From Planctomycetota bacterium (GTDB lineage Bacteria > Planctomycetota > Phycisphaerae > Phycisphaerales > SM1A02): a stretch of 38,185 nucleotides of DNA. Position 1 is the first letter of the stretch. Each line of letters begins with the position of its first letter. The notes under the pieces are model-generated. The model did no database searches, was not told where the DNA came from, and worked only from the letters and a program-made list of their open reading frames with translations. Below, piece after piece: positions 27,970 through 36,871 of the stretch. The stretch lies in assembly GCA_003671055.1 (NCBI GenBank), contig QWPV01000006.1:1-38185 (forward strand), given 5' to 3'. The position numbers were made by a program, and so were the translations under genes.

Positions 27970-28005
27970 GCCGTAATTGAGCGGTTTTGCAGCGTGGCAA
28001 AGAGC

Positions 28006-28011
28006 TACACT
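28006..28011 (+). promoter_or_regulatory. -10-like hexamer of purL
   Basis: TACACT ends 12 bases before the purL ATG at 28024. It lies inside the alternative longer frame that begins at GTG 27994, which argues for the shorter start. Confidence 0.3.
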
Positions 28012-28023
28012 TGGCGATTCGCC

Positions 28024-31000
28024 ATGGCAGTTGTGACCACGCAACCGGAACTACCCAATCGCACCACTGGGTTGAGCGCATTGCCGCCCATCCATCGGGT
28101 TGAAGTGCGCCCGCGTCGTGGACAGGTGGACTCTCGCGGCGCGAGTGTCGCGCGATCGATCGAAGCACTTGGCCTTGAGCGCAAACCAAAGCGTGTAGAT
28201 CACGCGCTCGTCTACCTCATTGAAGGTGAGCTCACCAACGAGGAATTGCACCGCATCGCGGATGAACTTCTCGCGGATCCAGTCACGCAAGTTGCGGAAG
28301 TGCACAGCACCTCACGAGCCTCGCGACCGAGTGCAGCGCCCGGCGTGAGCGTTGTCGAAGTGCATCCGCTTGCGGGTGTGACCGATCCCGCTGCGGAGAG
28401 TGTGCAAGCGGCGGTCCTTGCGCTCACTGGTCGCACTGTTCGTGTGCGCACTGGTCAGCGCATTGATCTTCATGGCGTGGACAAAGCGCTCGCGAAGAGC
28501 GTGGGCGATCGCTTGCTTGCAAATCCTGTCATTCACGCGATTCACACGGAGCCGTACTTTCCTTCGTCGTTTCCAGAAGGGAAGCCGTATGAACTTGTCG
28601 TGCGTGAAGTGCGCATGTCGAAGCTCAGCGACAAAGATCTTGAAGTGCTCTCGCGCGAAGGACATCTCTTCCTCTCGCTTGATGAGATGCACGCGGTGCA
28701 GGCGGAGTATCGACGACTCGGTCGCGAGCCACGCGAGATTGAACTTGAGACGATCGCGCAGACGTGGAGTGAACACTGCGTCCACAAGACGCTGAAGAGC
28801 ACCGTTCGATATCGCGAACTGCAGTCCGATCCAGCGTTCGCCGGGCAGTTCTCGCTGATGCGCAACACCGCAGGTCGACCGTTGACCGAAATCGCGATTG
28901 ATGGAAGTGTCACGATCAAGAATTTGCTGAAAGGCACAGTTGCCGCAGCAACACACGAGCTCATGAAGGACGGCATCGATTGGTGCTTGTCGGTGTTCGT
29001 CGACAACTCTGGCGTGGTTGCTTTCGATGATGAGCACGCAGTCTGCTTCAAGTGTGAGACACACAATCGACCGAGTGCGATCGAACCCTACGGTGGCGCA
29101 GCGACGGGCATCGGTGGCTGCATTCGCGATGTGATGGGTACTGGTCTCGGTGCGAAGCCGATTGCTGCGACTGATGTGTTCTGCGTTGCGTATCCCGATA
29201 TTGCAGAAGTACCGACGGGATGTTTGCATCCACGCCGCACGCTTACGCAAGTTGTTGCAGGTGTTCGCGATTACGGCAATCGCATGGGCATTCCAACGCT
29301 CAATGGCGCGGTGTGGTTTGATGACAACTACGTGGGCAATCCACTTGTCTACTGTGGATGCATCGGACTCATGCCGCGTTGGGCGGTGAAGGGCGTTGTG
29401 AAGCGCGGTGATCGCATCGTTGCACTCGGTGGACGGACTGGTCGAGACGGCATTCACGGCGCAACATTCTCAAGCGCGGAACTTACCACCACGCACGCCG
29501 ACGAATTCAGTCACGCAGTGCAGATTGGTAACGCGATCACAGAGAAGACGACGCTTGACGCAATGCTTGCGATGCGTGATCACAAGGACGGATGTCTTTA
29601 CAGCGGCACCACCGATTGCGGCGCGGGTGGATTCTCGAGTGCTATCGGCGAGATGGGCAGCGAAATCGGCGCGAGTGTATTTCTCGATCGCGCGCCAACG
29701 AAGTACGGCGGCTTGTCGCCCACGGAAATTTGGATCAGTGAAGCGCAAGAGCGCATGGTGCTCGCAGTGCCGAGCGAGAAGCTTGCGAAGATCGCAGAGA
29801 TCGCAGCAGATCACGGTGTCGAGTGGTGCGACCTCGGCGAGTTTGGTCGCGAAGACAATCACATTGTGTTGTCATGGCATGGAACGGAAGTGGGGCGACT
29901 CTCCACCGAGTTCCTCCACCAAGCGATTCCAATGCCTACAAAAGAAGCGATTTGGGATGCATCGTGGGCGCAGCAACAGCGCATGAGTCGACGACCTGCG
30001 AAGTTCAACACGGGTGGACGATTCAAGACAGGTGCGTCGAGCGCAGATGCGCTGAAGGTGTTGGAAGAGTTGCTCGCGCATCCGAATCTCGCAAGTAAGG
30101 CGTGGATCATTCGCCAGTACGACCACGAAGTGCAAGGTTCGAGCGTGCTCAAGCCGCTCGTGGGTGTTGCAGTGGGATCAAGTGGCGGTGGACCTGGTGA
30201 TGCTGCAGTGATTCGTCCGAAGGCGTCGTCGACGCGCGCGCTCGCGATTGCGAACGGACTTGCCACTGGACTCGGTGCAGATCCGTATGTGATGGCGCTC
30301 GCGGCAATCGATGAGTGCGTGCGCAATCTTGTGTGTGTTGGTGCTGATCCCACAAAGATCGCGATCCTCGATAATTTCAGCTGGCCGAGTTGCAAGGATC
30401 CGCGCAACATGGGCGCACTCGTGCGTGCATGCGTCGGTTGCTACGACGCGGCGAAGGCGTTTCGCACGCCGTTCATCAGCGGCAAGGATTCGCTCAACAA
30501 TCAGTTCGTCACCGAAGATGGTCGAACGATTCAAATTCCGCCCACGCTGCTCATCTCAGGTTTCGCGCCAGTTGTGGAAGCGTCGCGTGCGGTGTCGATG
30601 GATGCCAAGCGTGCGGGATCACAGCTCGTACTTGTCGGCGATACGAGTGATCGTCTCGGCGGATCGCATCTCGCGCTGCTCATGACGCTTCCGTCCGGCA
30701 CGTCATCGCTTCCTGCGCCGAGCCTTGTGCACGGACCGCGTAACGCGCACGCTGTTGCAGCGGCAATCGCGCAGGGGATTGTGTTGAGTTGCCATGATTG
30801 TTCCGAAGGAGGATTGCTCGTCGCTGCGGCGGAGATGGCATTCTCTGGCGGGCTCGGCCTTTCACTCAATCCCTTGGCTGCACCAACTGTGGGTGACGTG
30901 AGTTTCCTCGCGCGATGCTTCGCGGAAGATGCGTCGCGTTATCTGATCGAAGTCGATGCATCGCAACTTGATGCACTCTCGAAGACGCTCGCTGGTGTTC

Positions 31001-31122
31001 CACATGCAGTTGTTGGAACGTTTGATGGCACGGGGAAATTCTCCGTGACCGATGGAACTGCTCCAGCGCAGGTGTTGAGCAGCACACTCGGCGAGCGTTG
31101 GTCAGGAGGTCTCTCGTGGTAA
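28024..31122 (+). CDS. purL: FGAM synthase PurL with two N-terminal PurS-like domains
   Basis: This 1032-aa enzyme converts FGAR to FGAM in purine synthesis, using ammonia from PurQ. About 190 N-terminal residues form two successive PurS-like units, near 23-95 (HRVEVRPRRGQVDSRGASV through DPVTQVAEVHS) and 110-178 (VVEVHPLAGVTDPAAESV through NPVIHAIHTEPYF). The small-type PurL catalytic part follows: TWSEHCVHKT (catalytic His), CFKCETHNRPSAIEPYGGA, GGCIRDVMG, DCGAGGFSSAIGEMG and GKDSLNNQF. The glutaminase is separate (purQ, overlapping by 7 bases). Ordinary small PurL proteins are about 720-780 aa with a separate purS. A GTG at 27994 is open in frame, but ATG 28024 is preferred. Confidence 0.94.
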   Translation: MAVVTTQPELPNRTTGLSALPPIHRVEVRPRRGQVDSRGASVARSIEALGLERKPKRVDHALVYLIEGELTNEELHRIADELLADPVTQVAEVHSTSRASRPSAAPGVSVVEVHPLAGVTDPAAESVQAAVLALTGRTVRVRTGQRIDLHGVDKALAKSVGDRLLANPVIHAIHTEPYFPSSFPEGKPYELVVREVRMSKLSDKDLEVLSREGHLFLSLDEMHAVQAEYRRLGREPREIELETIAQTWSEHCVHKTLKSTVRYRELQSDPAFAGQFSLMRNTAGRPLTEIAIDGSVTIKNLLKGTVAAATHELMKDGIDWCLSVFVDNSGVVAFDDEHAVCFKCETHNRPSAIEPYGGAATGIGGCIRDVMGTGLGAKPIAATDVFCVAYPDIAEVPTGCLHPRRTLTQVVAGVRDYGNRMGIPTLNGAVWFDDNYVGNPLVYCGCIGLMPRWAVKGVVKRGDRIVALGGRTGRDGIHGATFSSAELTTTHADEFSHAVQIGNAITEKTTLDAMLAMRDHKDGCLYSGTTDCGAGGFSSAIGEMGSEIGASVFLDRAPTKYGGLSPTEIWISEAQERMVLAVPSEKLAKIAEIAADHGVEWCDLGEFGREDNHIVLSWHGTEVGRLSTEFLHQAIPMPTKEAIWDASWAQQQRMSRRPAKFNTGGRFKTGASSADALKVLEELLAHPNLASKAWIIRQYDHEVQGSSVLKPLVGVAVGSSGGGPGDAAVIRPKASSTRALAIANGLATGLGADPYVMALAAIDECVRNLVCVGADPTKIAILDNFSWPSCKDPRNMGALVRACVGCYDAAKAFRTPFISGKDSLNNQFVTEDGRTIQIPPTLLISGFAPVVEASRAVSMDAKRAGSQLVLVGDTSDRLGGSHLALLMTLPSGTSSLPAPSLVHGPRNAHAVAAAIAQGIVLSCHDCSEGGLLVAAAEMAFSGGLGLSLNPLAAPTVGDVSFLARCFAEDASRYLIEVDASQLDALSKTLAGVPHAVVGTFDGTGKFSVTDGTAPAQVLSSTLGERWSGGLSW
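31104..31109 (+). promoter_or_regulatory. Shine-Dalgarno that fixes the purQ start
   Basis: AGGAGG lies 6 bases before the GTG at 31116, inside the end of purL. It selects GTG 31116 rather than the upstream in-frame TTG at 31098. Confidence 0.7.
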
Positions 31123-31943
31123 ACAATTCTAAGAAGCACGCATCGAAACTGAAAGCACTTGTCATCACCGCGCCAGGCATCAACTGCGATGCTGAGTTGT
31201 GTGAAGGCTTCGCGCTCGCAGGCTGCACAGTCGAGAGCGAACTTCTCGCGCGACTCTCGCGCGATCCATCGCGTATCGATGCGTTCGATCTCATCGGCCT
31301 TCCTGGTGGATTTAGTTACGGCGATGACATTGCTGCAGGTCGCATCATGGCTGCGCTCATTCGTCAGTCCATCTATCCAGCACTCGCGCACGCAGTCGAG
31401 CGTGGTTGCCCGATCTTGGCACCGTGCAACGGATTCCAAATCGCTGCGCAAGCGGGACTGCTTCCTGGTCCTGAAGTTGGAACCGAGTGGCCTGCAGAGC
31501 CAGCGATTTCGACGATCGCGCTTGCGCCTAACGAGACCGGTCGATTCAACAACATCTGGGTTGGCATGGAAGTTCCCGTGGAAACGAAGTGCGTGTGGAC
31601 GCGCAATCTCGAATTCTCCCGCGCAACAGGATTGATTCCATGCGCACACGGTGAAGGGCGATTTGTTGCGGATGACGAAACGATCGAGCAACTCGAAGCG
31701 AATGGACAGATCGCGATGCGCTACAGCGCAGCAGATCACTTCAACGGTTCGCGCAATCGCATCGCGGGAATTTGTGATTCCACAGGACTTGTGTTCGGCC
31801 TCATGCCGCACCCTGAGCGGTACTTGCATTGGACGCAGCATCCGCGCTGGACACGATTGACTGAAGCGGAGCGCAGCGTGGTTCCGCCAGGCTTGCAGAT
31901 GTTCCAGAATGCTGTTGAGCACGCGCTGCAAACAATTGCGTGA
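31116..31943 (+). CDS. purQ: FGAM synthase glutaminase subunit PurQ
   Basis: This class I glutamine amidotransferase of about 275 aa delivers ammonia to PurL. The motifs are intact: ITAPGINCDAE, LPGGFSYGDDIAAG, nucleophile Cys in ILAPCNGFQIA, and the His-Glu pair in GLMPHPERYLHW. The length is at the upper end of the family, closer to the glutaminase domain of large PurL than to short B. subtilis PurQ (227 aa). The start is a GTG with a good AGGAGG, overlapping the purL TAA by 7 bases, so the two subunits are translationally coupled. The nfo frame follows after 9 bases, so a longer operon is likely. Confidence 0.95.
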   Translation: MVNNSKKHASKLKALVITAPGINCDAELCEGFALAGCTVESELLARLSRDPSRIDAFDLIGLPGGFSYGDDIAAGRIMAALIRQSIYPALAHAVERGCPILAPCNGFQIAAQAGLLPGPEVGTEWPAEPAISTIALAPNETGRFNNIWVGMEVPVETKCVWTRNLEFSRATGLIPCAHGEGRFVADDETIEQLEANGQIAMRYSAADHFNGSRNRIAGICDSTGLVFGLMPHPERYLHWTQHPRWTRLTEAERSVVPPGLQMFQNAVEHALQTIA

Positions 31944-31952
31944 GAGTCGTCC

Positions 31953-33962
31953 TTGGCGAAACCATCCACCACAACCCCCAGCAATTCCTCGAGTGCGCCG
32001 ACTGCGGAGTCGCTGTGGGTTGGCGCACATCTTTCCGTCGCGGGCGGGCTTCATCTTGCGGTGGAAGAAGCGAAGGCGCTGCACTTCGGTGGCTTGCAAG
32101 TCTTCACACGCAATCAACGCGTGTGGGTAACGCCGCCGCTTGAAGCAGACGAGGTGACGGCGTTTCGTGCAGCGTGCGCGAGCTCGGTGTTTGAAGAGCG
32201 CGGGCGCATCGTGAGCCACAACAGTTACCTCGTGAATCTCGCGAGTCCTGATGATGCAGCGCGCGCCAAATCAATTGACTGTGAGTGCGCGGAGCTCGAG
32301 CGATGTGAGCAACTCGGCATTGCAGCGAGTGTCGCGCATCCTGGCGCGCACCTCGGAACGCCGCGAAAGCCGAAGGACCCCAATGACTTGTTGTCTGAGC
32401 CCACCGCGGATGAACTCGGTGGACTGCGACGCATCGCCGCGTCGATTGACGCGATTCATGCACGGCTGCGTGGCTATAAAGTGCGCATCGCGCTCGAAAC
32501 GACAACCGGCAGTGGAACGAATCTCGGCTACGCGTTTCGACACCTCGCCATCATTCGTGAACTCGTGAAGGCACCCGAGCGTGTTGCGTTCTGCATCGAC
32601 ACCTGTCACATCGTGTCGAGTGGTTACGCGCACGCGACGGCGAAAGATGCGGATCGAACACTCGCAGCATTCGATGAAATCTGCGGGCTGCAGCATGTCG
32701 CAGTCATGCATATGAACGATTCTGAAGCGCTACCGGCATCCAGACGGGATTTACACGCGCACATTGGTCATGGAACCTGCGGCAAGCCGATCTTTACGGC
32801 TGTGATGCAGCATCCGAAACTCGCCCGCGTACCAAAGACCCTTGAAACCGAAAAGGGCGATACGCCGAATGGAAAGCCATGGGATCTCGTGAACGCGCAA
32901 GCACTCCTCGCGATGGCGAAGAAGTTGCCGCTCGCGCGTGCGAGCAAACTCGCGTGCATGCTCTTTGCGGTGAGCCTGCTCGTCGGTTGCACTGGTCAGT
33001 GGTTCAAGCGAACGCAAGTGACGAAAGCCGGGCAACCCGTTGTGCTTCGCACGGAGCCAACTGTTGACGAAGCCGACGTTCTCATCGCGGCGGATCGCGC
33101 GATGGCGCATGAAGACTACGACACCGCGCTGCGGCTTTTCCGCGATCTGCTCAACGACAACCCAACTCTCTCGCCTGCGTACCTCGGCATGGGACAAGCG
33201 CTCATGGCCGAAGGTGATCCGCAGCGCGCAGAGACGGCGTTCGCGCGTGCAGTGAAGTTGACGCCCGCGAGTTTCGCATCGCAATTCGGGCACGCGGAAG
33301 TGCTCTCCGTGTTAGGGCGATTCTCTGATTCCATTGACGCGTTCCGTCGCGCGCTTTCGATTCGACCGATGGACTTCGCGACGAATCTCGCGCTCGCGAA
33401 GACCTATCTCGAAATCGATCAGTCAAGCAACGCTCTGATTTTCGCGCGGAAGGCAGCGGAGATTGATCCGACAAGTGCAGCAGCGCAAGTGCAACTCGCA
33501 GAAGCATGGACGAAGGCGGGCAACGGCAGTGAAGCGGTTCGCGCGTATGAGACCGCGATTGAATTGGCTGAACCATCGAAGGAACTCTTGCTCGCGCTGG
33601 TTCAAGCGTACGGCGCGGAGAAGCGATTCGAAGAAGCAGTCAACACCGCGCAAGCACTGCTTCTCATCGCGCCCGATGCAAATGCAGCTGAGCGACTTGG
33701 TTGGGCGCGCTTTCGACTCGGACGATTCGAGGAAGCACTCGCTGCATATGAGCAAGCACTCACCATCGATCCGAACCACTGGCCGAGTTTGAATGGCGTC
33801 GGCGTATTGAAACTCAACGTGTGGATCAAGTCGGAAAAGAAACTCGATGCAGCCCGTCACGAGGCACGCGCGGCGTTTCAGCAGTCGCTCATGATCAATG
33901 GTGATCAGCCCAAGGTGACGGCAGTGCTTATCAAGTATCGATTGAGCGACGACCCTCGGTAA
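31953..33962 (+). CDS. nfo: Endonuclease IV fused in frame to a TPR lipoprotein
   Basis: This is one open frame of 669 codons from a TTG start. Residues about 20-320 are endonuclease IV, an AP endonuclease with a TIM barrel. It begins LWVGAHLSVAGG, and the metal-site residues are all present: His in VSHNSYLVNLA, His in VAHPGAHLG, Glu in ALETTTGSG, Asp and His in CIDTCHI, His in VMHMNDS, Asp and His in DLHAHIGHG, and Glu in LETEKGD. The domain reaches its natural end at about residue 320. The frame then runs, without a stop, into a signal-peptide-like stretch with lipobox LVGC (Cys346) and seven or eight TPR units to residue 669. It could be a true fusion, two products through an internal start, or a lost stop codon. 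Confidence 0.85.
   Translation: MAKPSTTTPSNSSSAPTAESLWVGAHLSVAGGLHLAVEEAKALHFGGLQVFTRNQRVWVTPPLEADEVTAFRAACASSVFEERGRIVSHNSYLVNLASPDDAARAKSIDCECAELERCEQLGIAASVAHPGAHLGTPRKPKDPNDLLSEPTADELGGLRRIAASIDAIHARLRGYKVRIALETTTGSGTNLGYAFRHLAIIRELVKAPERVAFCIDTCHIVSSGYAHATAKDADRTLAAFDEICGLQHVAVMHMNDSEALPASRRDLHAHIGHGTCGKPIFTAVMQHPKLARVPKTLETEKGDTPNGKPWDLVNAQALLAMAKKLPLARASKLACMLFAVSLLVGCTGQWFKRTQVTKAGQPVVLRTEPTVDEADVLIAADRAMAHEDYDTALRLFRDLLNDNPTLSPAYLGMGQALMAEGDPQRAETAFARAVKLTPASFASQFGHAEVLSVLGRFSDSIDAFRRALSIRPMDFATNLALAKTYLEIDQSSNALIFARKAAEIDPTSAAAQVQLAEAWTKAGNGSEAVRAYETAIELAEPSKELLLALVQAYGAEKRFEEAVNTAQALLLIAPDANAAERLGWARFRLGRFEEALAAYEQALTIDPNHWPSLNGVGVLKLNVWIKSEKKLDAARHEARAAFQQSLMINGDQPKVTAVLIKYRLSDDPR
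32913..33962 (+). other. Probable internal start: TPR lipoprotein within the nfo frame
   Basis: ATG 32913 (codon 321) opens MAKKLPLARASKLACMLFAV, a textbook lipoprotein signal peptide with a basic n-region, hydrophobic core and lipobox ending at Cys (32988-32990). The mature part of about 325 aa consists of tandem TPR units (for example YDTALRLFRDLLNDNPTLSPAYLGMGQALMAEGD, and FEEALAAYEQALTIDPNHW), so it is probably a periplasm-facing scaffold. A lipoprotein signal cannot work in the middle of a cytosolic nuclease, so a separate 349-aa product from this ATG seems likely. No Shine-Dalgarno precedes it. A Tad/pilus-type TPR lipoprotein is one comparison, but no pilus genes are nearby. Confidence 0.5.
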
Positions 33963-34238: not shown

Positions 34239-34264
34239 TCGTCCGACAGCCAATGGAGTTCCAT

Positions 34265-36871
34265 ATGCGCATTCTGAGATCCCTTCGTTCGGTGCAGTCG
34301 CGTCTCGCTTCGTTCACCGCGGTTGCGGTGCTCTCGATTGGTTGCATGAGTTCTTCTGCGAACGCGCAACAGCGTGAAGTGCCGCCACCAGTGCCGAGCA
34401 CGGAAGTCATCTCGTTGCTTGAACGCGCGGGACTTTCGAACGCTGATGCTGCACTCGCGGTCGCAGCGCACGAGGTTTACTTCGAACGGTATCGAGACTT
34501 CGAGCGCGCAGAAGTTGACCGTTGGCTGAGGAGTCGTGAAGGAAGTTTCGCAGGCATGTTGCAAGGCGGCGGAAGTGCTGCGGAGGTTGAGAAGGATGTC
34601 ACGACACGCCGACGGCTCATCGCTTCCGCGAAGCAACTTGATGATCAACTCGCGAGTGAGATTGCGGCAAAGCTTCCTGCAGAGAAGCAGCAAGTTGCGG
34701 ATGCGTTGCGGGATGCGCTTGCTCGTCGTCGCGCGTCAATTGTCGTGCGCGCATTTGGTGGCGGCTTCGAATCGCGGCCGTTCTCGCTTGCGGACTTCCC
34801 AGACTTTGCCACGATCGCTCCGGAAGCGCGCGCGCAAGTACAGCCCATCCTTGCGGTCTACGAGCAAGAGTTGACGCGGCTTTGGGATCGCGCGTTGGTG
34901 CTGGCGATTGACCGCCCACTGCGCATCGCAGAATTGCGCGCGAACAGAGGCATTGCGGCGCCAGTCATGCCCGCGCCCGCTGCAGAAGGTGAAGCAGCAC
35001 CAGCATTAGATCAAGCGGCGTTTGAACAGTATTGGCGATCGCTCCAGGATCTTCGTCGCGAAGCGAGTGCAGACGCCGATGCAGCGCGTCGCAAAGTAAA
35101 GGACTTTCACCGACTCACGCTTGCGCAACTCGAAGCGGTGCTCGATGCAAATGCCGCGCGCAATGTGCGTCGCTGGATGATTCGCGAAAAATATCCGTTA
35201 CTCCATGAGAAGGGCACGCCTGAACCACTCTTTGCGGAAGCCGCCGAGTTGCATGATGCAGACAAGCTCGATGATGCAGCATGGGGCAGTGTCGAAGCTG
35301 AGCGGGCTGCGTATGACGCGGAAGTGCACCCGATCGTTGATGAAGTGATGAAGTTGAGCGATGCGGACAGCAACAGCGGCATGATCATGTTCTTCGAAGC
35401 CGGGCAGCAACAGAGTGACAAACAGGCCATCCTCGAGCGGAAGTCGCTGGTCGATGCACGAAGCGTTGAACGGATGCGCGCGATTCTCGGCAAGCCCGCG
35501 GATGAAGTGACGCCGCCGCAAGTTGCGCAAGGAGGCATGTCGTTCACCATCGATGGTGGGACGATTGATCTTGGCGAGGCACTCGGTGAGGCTGTCACCG
35601 CATCGGTCATGATCGGGTTTGGCGATCGTAACGGCGAGATGATCATTGTCAGCGGCGACGAGTTCAGTGGTGGCTCGTTCGCGAGCATGGGCTATGGCGG
35701 AGGAGATCGTCGCATCGCAAAGGCGATGAGCCGCGCAGATGCAGACGCGCTTGCGAAGCGGTTGTCGATCTCTGAAGCAGAGCGCGTGGCGTTCGACGCA
35801 GTGTTTGAGGATTACGCGTTGAACGGAAAGAATATTGAAGCATCGTTTTCGCCCAAGAGTGACGACAGCGCGGAGGACTCGCCGCAAGTGATGTTCGGCG
35901 CGATGCGTGCAATGCAGGGGAAACTCGCTGAGTTGCGCGGCGCGATCGAAGCTGCTGACGCGAGTTTCTTCGCAGATCTTGGTGTGGTGTGTCCAACGGC
36001 GATGGAGTCGGGCGCTCTTGCGGCCGCTGAGCAGGCGCGTGCGCGGGCACTTGCAACGAGTGGAGAAGCCCCAAGCGCCGCAACCGCCGACATTGCCGAA
36101 GCGTTCATCGCCGCGGAAGTGAGTGCGGAAGGTCGTGCCTCTGCGTTGGAGTCCGTCACAGCGTGGGAGCAAGAAGCGTCGCCACAATTCACGAGCCGTG
36201 CGCATGAGTTGGATGCGATTGCGCGGCAACAGATGCAGCTCGAGAATGAGATGCAAATAGAGATGACGCATTCGACGTCCGCTGGCGTCGCGTCGCAGTC
36301 CACAACCATGACAGTCACGGGCGACAATGAGAAGATTTTGGAAAAGATGCTGACGCTTGAAGCGCGTCAGGCTGCTTTGAGTGTGAAGGCAGAGAAATCC
36401 AACCTCGCTGCACTTGGCAACATTTGTGCTGCGCTCCCTGAGGTCGACGGCACGAAGTTGCGTCGTGCGTGGCAACGACTTGCGTACCCGCGCGTGTACG
36501 ACGCAGGGTCGTCGGCAGAGGGGATCTTTGTGAAGGCGCTCGCGCTTCGTGAGTTGAGTGCGGAGCAACGCGCAGCGATTGAGGTGATGAAGTCGGAGTA
36601 CAACGAAGCGGTGGAAGCACTCGCAGGAGAGTTCATCGCGCGTCCCGCGCCAGCTCGCGCAAATCTTGGTGATGGGTCAGAAGGATTGAACATCGTCGCA
36701 ATGCAGACAGCCGAGCGCGAACGCAAGCGCCTCACGGCTGACCGCGAGGAGTTGAACCAAAGCGCAGTGCGTCGTTTGAAAGAAACACTCGGTGCTGAAC
36801 TTGGTGCGAAGGTCGGCGATCTTCCGGTGAAGAAGAAGCGATCACCCATGCAATTCCAAATCGGCGGCTGA
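34265..36871 (+). CDS. Large exported helical protein of unknown function
   Basis: This is an 868-aa protein with an N-terminal signal peptide ([16 protein letters not shown], then [18 protein letters not shown]). Cleavage after SANA is likely; a poor lipobox (SIGC) is an alternative. The mature part is Ala/Glu-rich and mostly helical. A helix-Tyr-helix module seems to recur near residues 49-81, 320-360, 494-528 and 755-790 (for example [25 protein letters not shown]). These segments recall the LTxxQ helices of Spy/CpxP-type periplasmic proteins. A Gly-rich strand-forming stretch lies near 415-475. ATG 34265 is preferred over 34253 because GGAG sits 6 bases before it. I do not recognise the family, and neighbours give no functional clue. 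Confidence 0.8.

Follow-up and report, generated by a model that had tools for sequence, protein, structure and literature searches.

A conserved reading frame joining endonuclease IV to a TPR lipoprotein in relatives of the Phycisphaerales, with a predicted lipoprotein signal at its junction

The window, by which we mean the whole stretch of 38,185 nucleotides that was analysed, contains a single uninterrupted reading frame that runs from a TTG at 31953 (a mechanical call, so that the actual start may lie some codons off) to the TAA at 33960-33962 and encodes 669 amino acids without any internal stop. It had originally been predicted that this one open frame, 31953-33962, holds an endonuclease IV (Nfo), a lipoprotein signal and a TPR domain, and the frame itself, the Pfam matches and an AlphaFold2 model all bear this out. 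The features of the frame and its upstream neighbours are listed in Table 1.

Table 1. Position of the fused frame, its parts and its upstream neighbours in the window.
Feature	Position	Strand	Remarks
purL	27994-31122		precedes the purQ-like gene
purQ-like GATase, upstream neighbour	31098..31943	+	directly 5' of the fusion
whole fused frame	31953..33962	+	669 aa; open across the junction in orthologues too
endonuclease IV (Nfo) catalytic domain	32016..32873	+	residues 22-307, nine metal ligands present
C-terminal helix of Nfo	32880..32918	+	residues 310-322, contains ATG 32913 (Met321)
in-frame ATG, candidate internal start	32913..32915	+	codon 321; Shine-Dalgarno-like match weak or absent
internal signal sequence	32919..32987	+	basic n-region KKLPLARASK, then hydrophobic stretch (predicted helix 327-343)
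lipobox LVGC, Cys346	32979..32990	+	predicted Lgt lipidation and LspA cleavage site
linker behind Cys346	32991..33062	+	residues 347-370; pLDDT <50 at 345-364
TPR solenoid	33063..33935	+	residues 371-661; Pfam and AlphaFold2 model

Judged by its sequence, the N-terminal part of the fused frame is a complete endonuclease IV, for which AP-endonuclease activity is predicted. The Pfam family AP_endonuc_2 (PF01261) matches residues 37-307 with an E-value of 3.6e-39, and the NCBIfam subfamily model TIGR00587 (nfo) scores 219.8 bits, above its curated cut-off of 129.65; the narrower 'deoxyribonuclease IV' equivalog models NF002199, NF002197, NF002196 and NF002198 all match below their own cut-offs, the best of them being NF002199 with 225.5 against a cut-off of 315. 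Alignment to 1qtw revealed that H89, H129, E182, D216, H219, H253, D266, H268 and E298 are all present, nine positions that correspond to the metal ligands of E. coli Nfo, and all nine are invariant across 40 aligned fused proteins, in agreement with the original prediction of a complete enzyme with its expected ligands. Foldseek returned 4k1g (E. coli Nfo, 34% identity) as the best match of this part. The whole domain, the metal ligands and the fold are hence common to known Nfo and the fused protein, whereas the Nfo chains matched in the PDB comprise about 250-325 residues and the fused frame extends through an internal signal into the TPR part. In the window genome, the fused gene is the sole place that matches the Nfo part at E ≤ 0.001.

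The AlphaFold2 model of the fused protein (mean pLDDT 89, pTM 0.52) consists of the Nfo barrel, the helix 310-322, the helix 327-343, a low-confidence stretch and the TPR solenoid, and TPR families of Pfam were matched at about residues 380-610. The ATG at 32913 had been expected to lie at the C-terminus of Nfo and to open a lipoprotein signal. A signal leading up to LVGC, with its Cys at codon 346 (32988-32990), is found there, whereas the ATG sits, according to both the model and the alignment of Nfo C-termini, within the last helix of Nfo rather than downstream of it, and codon 321 forms the last hydrophobic position of that helix. As in lipoproteins, a lipobox Cys stands at the end of a basic and then hydrophobic signal; in the long frame this signal begins after about 320 residues, and it would be N-terminal, as in an ordinary lipoprotein, only if an internal start were used.

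The family was searched in 181 genomes, 166 of which gave a Nfo match at E ≤ 1e-25, and near relatives were searched as well. Junctions were read at 113 loci with Nfo, 112 of them inside the family and one (L011) from another family, f3; L032 gave no nfo match and was dropped. At 50 loci, representing 49 genomes as G027 has two copies, the Nfo part is fused to the TPR part, at 19 a stop separates the two within one frame, at 42 they lie in different frames, and two loci (L080 and L086) are without a detected TPR part. L080 is open across the junction and stops at the contig end, and with this locus included the junction is open in 51 loci from 50 genomes and six genera, six of which (L067, L070 and L080-L083) run off the contig end within the TPR part. 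The window's own genus, g1, is fused in 4/4 genomes, and fusions were found elsewhere in g6 (3 genomes), g25 (11 genomes, 12 loci), g52 (17, plus L080), g60 (13) and g62 (1). Every genome with a readable junction in these six genera is fused, a count outside which stand G188 as well as G134, G136, G143, G190 and G197 (no match at E ≤ 1e-25), G079 and the second Nfo match of G078 (contigs ending before the junction), and the second Nfo match in G070. None of the 29 other genera of read loci, often represented by one genome each, is fused. Besides, no uninterrupted fusion outside the family occurred among the matches listed for an order-wide sample of 400 genomes (E ≤ 1e-70) or a phylum-wide sample of 392 genomes (E ≤ 1e-60), strict cut-offs that could miss a weak or distant fusion.

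These results bear on the lost stop codon or assembly error that the original prediction had put forward, and the window does come from a draft genome of 100 contigs. However, the frame stays open in many other genomes whose junctions have diverged. The genus g1 proteins are 76-83% identical to the window protein over the full chain, and their signal of about 26 residues has diverged nearly throughout, including one in-frame gap of six codons. Since the open junction, diverged in sequence, is present in all g1 genomes and in 46 genomes of five other genera, it is neither an assembly error nor a local mutation, and the chance that it reflects an error of assembly, a stop lost in one strain or a frame open by accident is practically negligible. 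Two separate genes in all close relatives had been named beforehand as the outcome that would tell against the fusion, and the genomes of genus g1 gave the opposite. The fusion is a conserved arrangement shared by several genera, all of aquatic bacteria related to Phycisphaerales. Among the entries listed by a literature search of open-licence papers, none reports a fused Nfo-TPR lipoprotein. Two different fused copies, L010 on contig C11 and L075 on C4, were observed in G027, which are either paralogues or the product of a mixed assembly.

In the unfused state, the two parts form a gene pair with nfo first and a homologous TPR lipoprotein gene adjoining it, behind a stop or in another frame. 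The TPR lipoproteins of these relatives share with the fusion a homologous TPR domain, a lipobox before the TPR and the order of the genes, whereas they are encoded in a separate frame or after a stop and have their own start, and the TPR part of the fusion follows Nfo in frame. The 61 unfused rows represent 57 genomes, with L012/L100, L015/L107, L023/L112 and L025/L113 as doubles, and the candidate TPR start varies in position, from a few bases within nfo to more than 300 bases past the nfo stop. In g17 (L012, L097 and L100, the first and last of these being one genome), g28 (L017) and g26 (L096), the candidate start and the nfo stop share 4 bases, an overlap suggesting that two separate genes are translationally coupled. 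At seven g18 loci (L008, L046, L051, L052, L055, L062 and L063), the TPR gene lies in the frame of nfo with one or two stops between, and an ATG follows 27-33 bases past the nfo stop, close to the fused arrangement. At the unfused locus L099 (G155, g17), the Nfo frame is apparently broken by an early stop.

A quick tree of both domains, computed from 63 of the 111 rows that have both parts, joins the long branches of g25 and g17, and this bears on the placing of these two genera. Genus g1 clusters with the unfused g59 and g26 (SH-aLRT 98-99), and the remaining fused genera belong to a group next to it, together with the unfused g17 and g2. A single clade of all 22 fused rows was ruled out (AU p = 1.57e-5). 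One clade of the 18 fused rows outside genus g1 was not rejected (p = 0.33). The minimum number of changes between the fused and the unfused state on the tree is 4; among the shortest accounts is one with two fusions that are followed by two splits, and a single gain that is split four times afterwards would cost 5 changes when counted by hand. On the evidence of these trees, two gains of the fusion would be favoured over a single old gain, and the fusion may have arisen twice in the family.

Another explanation proposed at the outset was that one frame gives two proteins. In genus g1, an internal start at ATG 32913 would yield, in addition to the full-length chain, a TPR lipoprotein whose 25-residue signal peptide looks like that of a textbook. 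The ATG at codon 321 and the Ala-Lys/Arg behind it are kept in 4/4 genus g1 genomes while the subsequent signal diverges, and codons 313, 315, 321 and 322 are identical in all four. Silent differences are low at codons 313-322, with a pS of 0.37 compared with 0.50-0.75 in the other stretches examined, an apparent dip that spans ten codons picked post hoc, and an internal start would produce low pS here as well. However, the Shine-Dalgarno-like match at this ATG amounts to 3, 0, 4 and 4 bases, respectively, across the genomes of the genus.

Met321 was also considered as proof of an internal start, and was rejected as such, as the column is mostly L, M, F or I in unfused Nfo: the 58 distinct unfused rows have L 29, M 18, F 6, I 3, W 1 and gap 1, and the 18 rows with Met span seven genera. 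Since Met is common enough at this column in proteins encoded by separate genes, Met321 requires no function as a start codon. The 49 fused rows (L066 is absent from this alignment) have L 16, I 16, M 9 and others 8. On the other hand, 12 of the 18 unfused Met rows belong to g18, and the sister genus g59 has Met in only 1/12, so that Met at codon 321 appears to be an unusual residue in the branch of genus g1. Because most of these Met rows come from one genus and Met is rare in the sister genus, we rate an internal start slightly higher, and a single cut chain slightly lower.

Outside genus g1, a comparable ATG is mostly missing. When a plausible start was defined as an ATG that is followed by a basic residue and lies 12-35 codons upstream of the Cys, 12/50 fused loci had one (g1 4/4, g6 1/3, g25 0/12, g52 4/17, g60 3/13, g62 0/1) compared with 52/61 unfused rows (48/57 distinct genomes), and Fisher p-values on such counts overstate the evidence, as the rows are related by descent. 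A limit of 30 codons gave 9/50 fused and 44/61 unfused, and a limit of 40-45 codons, at which g25 contributes ATGs from within the catalytic motif of Nfo, gave 25/50 and 56/61. With GTG and TTG also allowed, plausible starts were found in 27/50 fused and 55/61 unfused, and alternative starts of this kind may be available to about half of the fused loci. As a general explanation of the fused loci, an internal ATG is weak. Two proteins from an internal start are possible in genus g1, given its four conserved ATGs, and they are neither needed to explain the frame nor general among the fusions; even for genus g1 we consider them unlikely.

Cys346 is invariant in 16/16 and in 40/40 fusions aligned. 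The 40-row alignment omits L060, L066, L067, L070, L072, L077, L079 and L081-L083 for shortness or closeness, and these ten fused loci likewise have a Cys behind a hydrophobic stretch. Almost nothing else is conserved around it: residues 326-346 have a pN/pS of 0.85 in genus g1, compared with 0.14-0.18 in the domains, the silent sites being close to saturation. An invariant Cys in such a fast-changing stretch is the pattern of a signal with a required Cys, and from this invariance we infer that Cys346 is lipidated. The window genome also encodes the two enzymes concerned, LspA (PF01252) being matched in one place and Lgt (PF01790) in two, with the main one on C13. The second, weaker Lgt-family match lies at G000:C33:9043-9702 (L119).

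The lipobox itself is more variable. Residue -3 is one of L/V/I/M/F/A in 27/49 fused rows compared with 46/61 unfused rows, the fused L041, which carries an Asp inside its lipobox, having been excluded from lipobox and stretch scoring by the charge filter. This residue falls outside the set in 8/16 g52, 8/13 g60 and 3/3 g6 fusions, compared with 15/61 unfused rows; the lipobox of these three genera is thus looser than that of unfused relatives, with the Cys still kept. The uncharged stretch before the Cys is long in g52, where the genus median of 23 is closer to a plain membrane anchor; it resembles that of a signal peptide in genus g1, where it measures 13, 16, 16 and 16, and in g25, where it measures 17, with an unfused median of 15. 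A comparison of genus medians showed no significant difference in its length between fused and unfused genera (Mann-Whitney p = 0.15).

A membrane-tethered nuclease, as suggested by the original prediction, comes close to the reading that we consider best, which adds a probable cut at Cys346. In a strictly uncut version, Nfo would stay inside and the TPR part outside in one chain that is never cleaved, whether Cys346 is lipidated or not. The long hydrophobic stretches of g52 and the loose boxes of g52, g60 and g6 would fit such an anchor, and cleavage may have been lost or weakened in these three genera, leaving the chain uncut. However, a plain anchor would not need the Cys that is invariant in the 40 aligned fusions, and genus g1 combines a short hydrophobic stretch with a canonical residue -3 in 4/4 genomes. 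We regard a chain that is never cleaved as rather improbable.

The balance of these observations tips modestly towards a single translation product whose Nfo part is cytosolic and whose TPR part lies outside, with Cys346 as the site of lipidation and of a probable cut. According to this proposal, an old gene pair of nfo and the TPR lipoprotein would have merged into one gene, from which the ribosome would produce one chain. Nfo would fold in the cytosol, with its basic C-terminal tail acting as the n-region of the signal sequence, and Sec would insert the hydrophobic stretch before Cys346 with the N-terminus inside, such that the TPR part is exported. Lgt would then lipidate Cys346 and LspA would probably cut before it, which would yield two products: an endonuclease IV that carries a short membrane tail at its C-terminus, and the TPR lipoprotein as a protein of its own. 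A single chain is likely to be the main product in g25, and probably also in genus g1; the direction of the signal and the location of DNA point to Nfo in the cytosol and TPR outside; and the chances of an LspA cut at Cys346 are about even. In its fullest form, the proposal describes a polyprotein matured by the lipoprotein pathway, in which Nfo serves as a 320-residue n-region and Lgt and LspA release both parts 1:1, and this we put forward tentatively and with some doubt. Candidate benefits would be a fixed stoichiometry or a nuclease kept at the membrane.

It had been argued that a cytosolic repair enzyme joined to an exported lipoprotein makes no sense as a single product. By analogy with known proteins, however, a cytosolic domain, one membrane-spanning signal and an exported domain would be an allowed topology. 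PknB-type kinases have a large cytosolic N-terminal enzyme, one membrane helix and an exported repeat domain, and thus share with the fusion an enzyme inside and repeats outside, but they are not known to have a lipobox or to undergo such cleavage, whereas a lipobox is predicted in the fusion. Another comparison is with FbcH of Bradyrhizobium, a polyprotein of cytochrome b and cytochrome c1 that is processed by signal peptidase. Like the fusion, it comprises one gene, two domains and an internal signal; FbcH is cut into two proteins, as is proposed for the fusion. The two parts of FbcH are members of a single membrane complex, and the cut is attributed to signal peptidase I, whereas the fusion combines a cytosolic DNA-repair enzyme with a predicted LspA-type site. 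The parts of the fusion are ordinary, and FbcH would provide a precedent for the maturation of a gene fusion by a signal peptidase.

If the fusion is indeed made as one chain, endonuclease IV would be anchored on the membrane's inner face, an unexpected location for this enzyme, and the lipoprotein pathway would handle a signal with a folded enzyme ahead of it. Best-domain annotation of such a chain could, in addition, name one half and hide the other. The fused and unfused relatives together offer a natural comparison for the question whether Lgt and LspA accept long cytosolic n-regions.

Downstream of the fusion lie a large frame without Pfam match and then an aminotransferase, and six parts of the neighbourhood occur in identical order in three near relatives (L120-L122). 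The large frame (34253-36871) encodes 872 residues with a signal-like start, as judged by eye, and is also found 3' of the fusion in these three relatives.
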